Of a DNA stretch of 64,000 nucleotides, positions 7,558 to 52,248 are shown piece after piece. Below the pieces are notes generated by a model. The model ran no database searches. It was not told the origin of the DNA and saw nothing but the letters and a program-made list of their open reading frames with translations. Made by a program: the position numbers and the translations under genes. Location of the stretch: NCBI GenBank assembly GCA_947629455.1, contig CANRDT010000002.1, positions 62,001 through 126,000 on the forward strand, read 5' to 3'. Each line of letters begins with the position of its first letter. Position 1 is the stretch's first letter. The stretch comes from an uncultured Ruminococcus sp. GTDB lineage: Bacteria; Bacillota; Clostridia; Oscillospirales; Ruminococcaceae.

Positions 7558-7694
7558 AAAAAAGCTCCTTTGCACAAGTCGGGGGAATAATAAAAATGCC
7601 GACGGCTGTCCTCCCGGACGGGGCATTTCCGCCCGTCCACGGTGCATATCGCTCCGGCTTTATAAATAGGGCGGAGAAAGTTTTTTGTATATTA

Positions 7695-7765
7695 TGTTAT
7701 TTCCTTTGCTTTGCGACAGAGAATATAACAAAAAATTTGCAAAACTGAGCGGAAAATAATTCTCT
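7695..7765. repeat. Decayed copy of the two-hairpin intergenic repeat
   Basis: GAGAATATAACA followed by TTTGCAAAACTG, GCGGAA and ATAAT matches the flank of the intact copy at 43972-44045. The inner palindrome has decayed, but the outer TGTTAT/ATAACA remains. AAATTGATTTCC just to the right is also shared with the other copies. Confidence 0.6.
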
Positions 7766-7801
7766 CATAAAATTGATTTCCTTGCCGACGGCTTGGAAAA
7801 G

Positions 7802-9835: not shown

Positions 9836-10098
9836 AATACAAGCTCCTTTCTTGATTCGCCGTGCTTAAAACGTTACAGATCGTTCCTGCGCGGCGGTAT
9901 GAAGGTATTATTCCACGAGCCGCCGCGATTATTCCGATAAATTATTCTCTGCACGCAGGCTTGAAAAATTTTCAAAATAAAAACGACGGTCAATTGCGCC
10001 GCATAGTCTTTCATAAAAACAAACAGACCGCGGAATTCAATTTTATAGGAGTGTTTTTATTCTTATAATTATATTTTGCTCAATCAGGCGAGATTTTT

Positions 10099-10172
10099 GT
10101 TATATTCTCCGCCGCAGGCGGAGAATATAACATTAAATTATTTTTCCTCCGCCATTGGCGGAGGAAAAATAA
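10099..10172. repeat. Intact two-hairpin palindromic repeat, copy A
   Basis: Two perfect palindromes lie six bases apart. The first has 15-base arms (GTTATATTCTCCGCC) with loop GCA. The second has 16-base arms (TTATTTTTCCTCCGCC) with loop ATT. The spacer is ATTAAA. The same arrangement occurs inverted at 43972-44045. Confidence 0.9.
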
Positions 10173-10246
10173 CCCAAAAGTCTGCATTGGCAAGTAAAAT
10201 ATATTAAAATGCTTACTTAAAATTTAATAATTGATTTCCGTAGCAA

Positions 10247-10275
10247 ACAGACCGCCAAAAAACGACGGTCTGAAT
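10247..10275 (-). terminator. Terminator after surface protein A
   Basis: On the minus strand, CAGACCG and CGGTCTG pair around a T-rich loop, with a short T-rich tail. Confidence 0.6.
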
Positions 10276-13087: not shown

Positions 13088-13151
13088 CTGTTCAAGGAGA
13101 ACAATTTTAATAATTTTTGATAGCATATTTCACTGAACGCGGCAGACTTTT

Positions 13152-13214
13152 TGATTATTTTTCCCATGCCTGCGGCGTAGGAAAGATATATTCTCCGCGT
13201 TGGCGGAGAATATA
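13152..13214. repeat. Diverged copy of the two-hairpin repeat
   Basis: TATATTCTCCGC and GCGGAGAATATA (13187-13214) match hairpin 1 with one C lost. TTTCCCATGCC and GGCGTAGGAAA (13160-13184) are a degraded hairpin 2 with one G-T pair and one mismatch. The order matches the copy at 43972. Confidence 0.65.
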
Positions 13215-13276
13215 CGCCCCAAAACAGCTTTCAGAAAGTCAAAAATTGATCTTCGCTGCGATAAAAGACTTCGCTG

Positions 13277-35944: not shown

Positions 35945-35964
35945 TATTATCGCTCACGCAATTT

Positions 35965-36048
35965 GGCTCCCTACAATGGTATTAACCAACAGGTTCTAAG
36001 GGTCAGGTTTTACCTTCTCAACCTTGCAAATGCACAGTTCCCCTGCAA
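35965..36048 (-). promoter_or_regulatory. TPP riboswitch aptamer (THI element)
   Basis: On the minus strand the conserved parts occur in order: CAGGGGAACTG, TTGAGA (for CTGAGA), ACCCTTAGAACCTG, GGTTAATACC and GTAGGGA. With the terminator downstream, TPP binding should stop transcription of thiDC and the genes behind it. Confidence 0.93.
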
Positions 36049-36057
36049 ATCAACAAT

Positions 36058-43872: not shown

Positions 43873-43971
43873 GAGTTAATTTTTTAAATCCATGAAAATC
43901 AATTTTGAAGTTATATGTAATCATTTTTATGTCAGACAGCTATTTCAGACCAAAGCAATCTGCCTTTTGGG

Positions 43972-44045
43972 TTATTTTCCCTCCGCCGCTGGCGGAGGGA
44001 AAATAATTTAATGTTATATTCTCCGCCAACGGCGGAGAATATAAC
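43972..44045. repeat. Intact two-hairpin palindromic repeat, copy B (inverted)
   Basis: Arms of 16 (TTATTTTCCCTCCGCC) and 15 bases (GTTATATTCTCCGCC) with loops GCT and AAC are separated by TTTAAT. It is the inverse of the copy at 10099-10172. It sits in a 507-base gene-free stretch (43798-44304) between the ACT operon promoter and groEL; the remainder is AT-rich with a further TTACCTC tandem and no supported gene. Confidence 0.9.
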
Positions 44046-44224
44046 AAAGATCTTGCAAAACTGCGCGGAATAATATTTTAAAATATGCGCCGCAGGCGCT
44101 CCTTGTCTTACCTCTTACCTCTTAAAAGCGAAGCGTTCTTACTTCTTAGGAAATCAAAATTGATTTCCGTGTTTTAAATCTCTTTTAATACAGCGCCGCC
44201 TGCACGCATATCCGTGCGCATACA

Positions 44225-51270: not shown

Positions 51271-52248
51271 TCAATCCAGACGACTGCCGCACTGAGAGCA
51301 GAAATTCGTTCCTTCCTCTTCCTTGTTGCCGCATTGTGTACAGAAAATATACTTGACAGGTGCTTCACTGCCCTTGACTTCGGCAGGCTGAGAAGAGATC
51401 GGCTTTGTAACGGGAGCGGCAGGCATCTCAAAAGGCTTGATCGCCGGCTGAGGAATACCCTGCGGCTGCGAAATTGCAATTTCCTTTGCTACATTTTCCT
51501 CGGGGAGGGTATCAGCCGTCGGAGCAGGTGTCTCTTCGGGTATAACAGGTTCTGCAACGGGTGCAGGAATAGGCGCAGGCTCTGCTATAACCGACTCTGC
51601 AACAGACACAGGGATTGGCGCAGGCTCTGCTGTAACAGGCTCTGCAACGGGCGCAGGAATTGGCGCAGGCTCTGATATAACAGGCTCTGCAACAGGCGCA
51701 GGGATAGGCGCAGGCTCTGCTATAACAGGCTCTGCAACGGGCGCAGGAATTGGCTCAGGCTCTGCTATAACGGGCTCTGCAACGGGCGCAGGAATTGGCG
51801 CAGGCTCTGCTATAACGGGCTCTGCAACGGGCGCAGGAATTGGCGCAGGCTCTGCAATAACAGGCTCTGCAACGGGCGCAGGATTATTCTGGGCAGGCTG
51901 CTTTGTACCGCAGTTAGGGCAGAACAGCACCTCATATCCCAGCGTTGCACCGCAGCCGGGACAGTACTTGATACCCTTGAGAACATCTATCTGCGCTTTC
52001 ATCTGATTCAGTCCTGCGATGAGCGTGTCTATCTCACCTGCAAGGCGCAGCACCTCGGGATCGCTTATGCCGCCGATCAGACGCAGCTTGACCGCTCTGC
52101 CGATCTCGGTATATCTGTTATTGATCTCCACCATATCCGAATTTATCTTCGCGTTGAGCCTGTTGATCTCGGAGGCTCTTTTTGCCGAGTCGGAGACTGC
52201 CGACGCTCCCGAAGATATTTTTTCTCCAAGCTTGTTAAAAAATGCCAT
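51271..52248 (-). CDS. Double zinc-ribbon protein with 15-residue tandem repeats
   Basis: The 325-residue protein has an N-terminal amphipathic coiled-coil-like region (about 1-92). A zinc ribbon follows (YCPGCGATL, FCPNCG; about 95-114). Then come about eight units of 15 residues on the pattern PAPVAEPVIAEPAPI (about 123-242), a short linker, and a second zinc ribbon (FCTQCG, FCSQCG). No membrane segment or signal is seen, so it is probably cytosolic. The repeat is a 45-base direct repeat in DNA. Function unknown. Confidence 0.8.
   Translation of the reverse strand: MAFFNKLGEKISSGASAVSDSAKRASEINRLNAKINSDMVEINNRYTEIGRAVKLRLIGGISDPEVLRLAGEIDTLIAGLNQMKAQIDVLKGIKYCPGCGATLGYEVLFCPNCGTKQPAQNNPAPVAEPVIAEPAPIPAPVAEPVIAEPAPIPAPVAEPVIAEPEPIPAPVAEPVIAEPAPIPAPVAEPVISEPAPIPAPVAEPVTAEPAPIPVSVAESVIAEPAPIPAPVAEPVIPEETPAPTADTLPEENVAKEIAISQPQGIPQPAIKPFEMPAAPVTKPISSQPAEVKGSEAPVKYIFCTQCGNKEEEGTNFCSQCGSRLD
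51525..51882. repeat. 45-base direct tandem repeats within the zinc-ribbon gene
   Basis: About eight units, nearly identical at DNA level (for example GGCGCAGGAATTGGCGCAGG recurs), encode the Pro/Ala/Glu repeats. Copy number is likely to vary by slippage. Confidence 0.9.

Follow-up and report, generated by a model that had tools for sequence, protein, structure and literature searches.

A very probable new ISAs1-type MITE family with two conserved hairpins and variable loops in a Ruminococcus-like genome

Bacterial MITEs such as MITEAba12 are short, gene-less elements that possess terminal inverted repeats, are flanked by target duplications, and occur in many copies, and the BOX elements of Streptococcus pneumoniae are modular, mobile, hairpin-forming intergenic repeats. 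We analyzed a stretch of 64,000 nucleotides of DNA (the window) from a Ruminococcus-like bacterium, the GroEL of which is 94% identical to that of Ruminococcus sp. Marseille-P6503, and we describe here the repeated elements that it contains. These elements resemble MITEAba12 in their general kind, being short and gene-less with terminal inverted repeats and duplications, but they differ from it in sequence, their double-hairpin core is more conserved than their ends, and they include composites joined at the hairpin cores. Their likeness to BOX elements is one of general description rather than of compared sequences. With the ISAs1 insertion sequences (NF033564; PF13808, PF01609) of relatives in the same bacterial family, the window elements share the same 16-bp ends and the 9-bp duplication, whereas they lack a transposase gene and any common internal sequence, and the host assembly yields no ISAs1 gene. 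REP/BIME elements with a RAYT are likewise intergenic palindromes in high copy number, but the window elements have target duplications and terminal repeats and no linked RAYT. We consider it very probable that two elements of the window, copies A and B, belong to a new ISAs1-type MITE family; the family is new, although the kind of element is already known. No published report of the element was found in a partial literature search.

An earlier note on this DNA, made from the sequence alone, had drawn attention, in each of copies A and B, to a pair of perfect palindromes that have loops of three bases and an ATTAAA spacer between them, and reading of the sequence bore this out. The hairpin features are as follows.

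10099-10131, plus strand: hairpin 1 of copy A, GTTATATTCTCCGCC-GCA-GGCGGAGAATATAAC, 15-bp arms, loop GCA
10132-10137, plus strand: conserved spacer ATTAAA of copy A, between hairpins 1 and 2
10138-10172, plus strand: hairpin 2 of copy A, TTATTTTTCCTCCGCC-ATT-GGCGGAGGAAAAATAA, 16-bp arms, loop ATT
44013-44045, minus strand: hairpin 1 of copy B, loop GTT
43972-44006, minus strand: hairpin 2 of copy B, loop AGC, stem pair T-A changed to C-G

The arms of copy B (minus strand, 44045-43972) are the same as those of copy A except for one double change in hairpin 2, where T10145-A10165 of copy A is replaced by C-G, so the reported alteration of one stem pair on both arms is correct. The similarity of A and B was also said to enter the flanks; it does so over 118 nt at 85% identity, well past the limits first recorded, and this was a pointer to a larger unit. 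The fold z-score of the element was -8.3, the 2.04-Mb host genome contained 78 copies of the 21-nt hairpin centre (none in the reversed-pattern control), and CTCCGCCNNNGGCGGAG was present in 129 copies (control, 0). On the basis of these three results the repeat is not due to chance, and the further genomic copies on which the earlier note had made its reading depend are abundant.

The whole element extends well beyond the hairpins. Similarity among the aligned host copies stops sharply at CACGGAAATCAATTTT on the left and at AAAATTGATTTCCGTG on the right, and short direct repeats flank both ends. The elements and duplications identified in the window are listed below.

10029-10242, plus strand: MITE copy A, 214 bp including both terminal repeats (family-profile nhmmer, E=3.8e-67; aligned with 27 other elements)
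10029-10044 and 10227-10242: terminal repeats of copy A, 2 mismatches each
10019-10028, unstranded: left target-site duplication of A, ACAAACAGAC, 9 of 10 bases equal to 10243-10252
10243-10252, unstranded: right target-site duplication of A, GCAAACAGAC, 10 bp with one mismatch to the left duplication
43891-44171, minus strand: MITE copy B, a 281-bp composite with a terminal repeat pair and an exact 9-bp duplication (nhmmer, E=6.7e-44)
43882-43890, unstranded: target-site duplication TTTTAAATC of B, exact 9 bp
44172-44180, unstranded: target-site duplication TTTTAAATC of B, exact 9 bp
13093-13257, minus strand: degraded copy in which hairpin 2 has decayed (nhmmer, E=1.2e-19 for 13093-13216), with terminal-repeat-like ends at 13093 and 13257 (3 and 4 mismatches)
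7652-7784, minus strand: partial copy with one terminal repeat (1 mismatch, at 7784), the left flank, and part of hairpin 1 (nhmmer, E=4.6e-10)

Copy B is organized as a terminal repeat, GAGGTAAGA repeats, a GCGCCTGCGGCGC module, the two hairpins, the right flank, and the second terminal repeat. It lies downstream of groEL and upstream of an ACT-domain gene; when the locus was compared with the nearest named relative, synteny ended at groEL and no empty site was found there. The window also holds a TPP riboswitch aptamer at 35951-36054 (minus strand, above the Rfam gathering score) and a tandem array at 51491-51927 with a 45-bp period and seven overlapping copies.

Across the host genome, the 16-bp terminal inverted repeat gave 255 matches at two or fewer mismatches, compared to 0 for the reversed-pattern control. 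When the 70 nearest pairs of ends were examined for target duplications, 9-bp duplications were exact in 21 and present at two or fewer mismatches in 42 (shifted control, 0/70), 12 further pairs of the 70 had 10-bp duplications, and flanking agreement fell to background immediately outside the duplicated bases. Most elements measured 180-340 bp, 210-219 bp being the commonest length class; the other size classes with the same ends included a 183-bp class without hairpins and composites of 250-384 bp, the composite elements being joined at a CTCCGCC core. The best copies were all intergenic (31/31) by gene calls that were crude, consisting of the longest open frames: 19 lay between tandem genes, 9 between divergent genes, and 2 between convergent genes, with the context of one undetermined. 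Among the tandem-gene sites, 12 copies had the same orientation as their neighbours and 7 the opposite one. Of the defining traits of a MITE, terminal inverted repeats, a duplication of fixed length, small size, absence of a transposase gene, and many dispersed copies are present, and the mobile-element reading offered earlier, as a MITE, is upheld by the terminal inverted repeats, the 9-10-bp duplications, the copy number, the intergenic sites, and the insertion sequences with the same ends described below. The full element was present in 0 of 15 other genomes of the genus. The exact centre pattern had no match in viral contigs or GTDB genome contigs, from which the records closest to the host are perhaps missing, and plasmid and phage collections likewise gave no match.

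Two further observations concern the modular make-up of host elements. A second MITE class (e.g. L061:269-451, L066:842-1025, and L069:292-488) has the same ends and target duplications without hairpins, and holds GAGGTAAGA-type short tandem repeats and the GCGCCTGCGGCGC palindrome, part of which is carried by copy B. In at least 8 host elements, in both orientations (e.g. L070, L079, L062, and L065), a module CCGTGGACGGGCGGAAATGCCCCGTCCGGGAGGAC substitutes for one hairpin half exactly at the CTCCGCC core.

The end sequence was found in 41 of 299 genomes of the bacterial family, and in two of these, G034 and G174, which belong to other genera, the same terminal repeat bounds 1230-bp insertion sequences. 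Their proteins match NF033564 (ISAs1 family transposase), and the G174 copy also matches Pfam PF13808 and PF01609. The G034 copy (L159) is a complete 1230-bp ISAs1 element with both ends exact and an open transposase frame, and its 9-bp target duplication GATTTTCAG flanks the element on either side, split over two contigs (L159 and L140), with the second occurrence left of a terminal repeat at the end of L140. At L130 one end is exact and the other has one mismatch, and a third ISAs1 element, in G240, has ends that differ by one base. The exact ends and 9-bp duplication in these relatives indicate that the ends and duplication length of the family match those of ISAs1. The MITE and the insertion sequences have the terminal repeat alone in common and no internal sequence; moreover, the repeat and ISAs1 do not always co-occur, G020 having 34 terminal repeats and no ISAs1 match. 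The linked transposase that the earlier note suggested seeking did not materialize: the host assembly (86% complete, 54 contigs) gave no match to PF01609, an ISAs1 protein, or NF033564, and its Y1 transposase gene is unlinked. The ISAs1 gene has either been lost from the host or is absent from the assembly. The shared ends suggest that an ISAs1-family DDE transposase would mobilize the MITE in trans. It would recognize the 16-bp ends CACGGAAATCAATTTT / AAAATTGATTTCCGTG and would insert the element at target cuts staggered by 9 bp (sometimes 10 bp), which would account for the observed target duplications. The two hairpins are an internal module of the element.

To describe diversity along the element we rescored it on copies found by the spacer pattern (right flank in 62, left flank in 45, only arms outside the pattern being scored) because the earlier set was biased, many of its copies having been found through the hairpin. 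The diversity of the hairpin-2 3' arm was 0.022 and that of the hairpin-1 5' arm was 0.070, compared to 0.204 and 0.285 for the respective adjoining flanks; the terminal repeats were at about 0.095, and the loops at 0.59-0.63. In the earlier set of 28 elements the ATTAAA spacer had a diversity of 0.035. The stem arms are thus 4-9 times less diverse than their flanks and the triloops 2-3 times more diverse, making the stems the most conserved part and the loops the least. Hairpin-2 stems were identical in 52 of 66 copies, with ten different loops. Double Watson-Crick changes numbered 26 in hairpin 1 (five pairs) and 3 in hairpin 2 (two pairs), against shuffle means of 5.0 and 0.1, counted in cells that represent copies and not independent events; no shuffle reached the observed cells. 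When distinct stems only were counted, the excess held for hairpin 1 and was weak for hairpin 2 (16/1000 shuffles). The covariation is real and beats shuffling, and the proposal of structure under constraint or repair is sustained by the conserved stems, the free loops, and the excess of compensatory changes. The claim that copies differ only in their loops fails genome-wide, since 34 stem mismatch cells stand against 29 double Watson-Crick cells and the flanks differ substantially. The expectation of compensatory stem change accordingly held in part: compensatory changes exceed shuffling, but uncompensated ones are about equally common.

The loops vary in two directions. For 16 of the 19 loop types the reverse complement is also present (GTT/AAC, GCA/TGC, GCT/AGC, and others), with p 2e-5 for this pairing and 6e-5 when a G-first or C-last bias is kept, both values applying at the level of types with descent ignored. 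On one of the two strands, nearly all triloops of the host hairpins read GNN (GTT/AAC, GCA/TGC, GAA, GCT/AGC, and GAC/GTC). The same pair was missing from both arms in two copies, L092 and L099. Mismatches on the consensus strand were more often A-C (14 cells) than G-T (5 cells). No three-base loop flip was seen among copies with two or fewer flank differences, and loop flips as the dominant recent process were rejected, the closest copies differing by single substitutions or by swaps of unrelated loops. A correlation between the left and the right flanks persists (Mantel r 0.60), so that only occasional exchange is supported and recombination clearly centred on the hairpins was rejected.

Hairpin-bearing elements were also found outside the host. 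G020 (L294-L322) and G165 (L295-L323), from another genus, possess ~206-bp elements with related, ISAs1-type ends and two hairpins at the same central position, the sequence of which is unrelated to that of the host hairpins. Double changes in these hairpins amounted to 4 and 11 cells and mismatches to 13 and 21 cells, respectively. The second hairpin of G020 is no more conserved than its flanks, so the conservation found in the host family does not hold everywhere. In G012, of the same genus as the host, CTCCGCC-NNN-GGCGGAG occurs 19 times (L174-L191) within another repeat (CGGAAAAGGATATT...AAATACCCTTTTCCGG); its loops are TTC, TGC, and, once, GAA.

With regard to what keeps the stems, the excess of A-C over G-T mismatches, the reverse-complement loop pairs, and the composites joined at the CTCCGCC core lead us to favour, with some reserve, a process acting on the DNA itself, be it template switching or strand exchange and whether or not selection takes part, over a strand-specific RNA. 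The palindrome arms would be copied or exchanged as DNA, by template switching or by recombination between copies, and the folded DNA may also be under selection, alone or in addition to such exchange. The combination of loop inversion with compensatory change is a published footprint of template switching (PMC8794818), and the set of loop types suggests that inversion took place. More tentatively, the hairpins may be a recurrent architecture of ISAs1-type MITEs, in which template switching or strand exchange in the DNA would hold the palindromes perfect, invert the loops, and also join composites at the cores. We regard the hypervariable two-way loops on frozen stems as the unusual part of the family.

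The alternative that survives best is compatible with a MITE and holds that stem complementarity is kept purely by mutation, through arm-to-arm template switching in replication, with no structural selection. That published signature of compensatory change with loop inversion (PMC8794818), the occurrence of loop types in reverse-complement pairs, the absence of the same pair from both arms of L092 and L099, and the double changes in unrelated MITE hairpins of another genus are all as this explanation would have it. It leaves unexplained, however, why stems are the same between copies (hairpin 2, 52/66 identical), as switching within a copy does not account for this, and it is further weakened by the conservation of the unpaired spacer, the lack of a three-base flip in the closest copies, and the persistence of common uncompensated changes. 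We therefore view a purely mutational origin as conceivable but doubtful, and infer that DNA-level maintenance in the broader sense, with or without selection, is the probable cause.

A structured RNA, acting in trans or within 3' UTRs and with stems kept by selection on transcript pairing, is unlikely. The very stable fold (z -8.3), the compensatory changes, and the greater conservation of stems than flanks would suit such an RNA, and when the reverse strand is read, wobble-type changes outnumber A-C by 14 cells to 5. On the consensus strand, however, A-C exceeds G-T by the same 14 to 5, whereas tolerance of G-U pairs would give the contrary bias. The two strands fold in the same way, copies between tandem genes point with their neighbours in 12 cases and against them in 7, the copies are mobile and species-specific, and the loops are unconserved. 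No Rfam family reached its gathering score, the best match having 36.4 bits against a cut-off of 80. The structured-RNA reading raised in the earlier note thus finds no backing in either Rfam or a G-U preference on the consensus strand.

The other reading raised there, of REP/BIME-like palindromes whose hairpins are themselves the substrate of a RAYT-type Y1 tyrosine transposase that spreads them, is highly improbable and was rejected. It would fit the paired palindromes of each unit, their intergenic position and high copy number, and the presence of a Y1_Tnp gene in the genome, but the moving unit is bounded by 16-bp terminal repeats and flanked by target duplications of 9-10 bp, and Y1 transposition is not known to make target duplications. 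Moreover, the sole Y1 transposase gene found in the assembly (G000:C2:724-1080, L324) is IS200-like and IS200-sized and is unlinked, with no hairpins or terminal repeats nearby, and GTAG is absent before the hairpins of A and B. Intrinsic transcription terminators dispersed with the element, to which GC-rich stems in intergenic DNA might point, are just as improbable, since on both strands a T-run precedes the stem and an A-run follows it (TTTTTCCTCCGCC...GGCGGAGGAAAAA), whereas an intrinsic terminator has the opposite arrangement, and convergent genes flank only 2 of 31 copies.

The results bring to light, in Ruminococcus-like gut bacteria, an abundant family of MITEs from the ISAs1 group, which has been little studied, and name its likely transposase. 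They provide a large set from one genome that allows stems, loops, and flanks to be compared between individual copies. They also call for caution, as covariation in dispersed hairpins need not mean a functional RNA: it is not proof of one because palindrome repair or exchange at the DNA level could give the same signature. If the hairpins are indeed a recurrent architecture maintained in this manner, the 78 copies in this one genome would preserve, in nature, the traces of a process that can seldom be observed.
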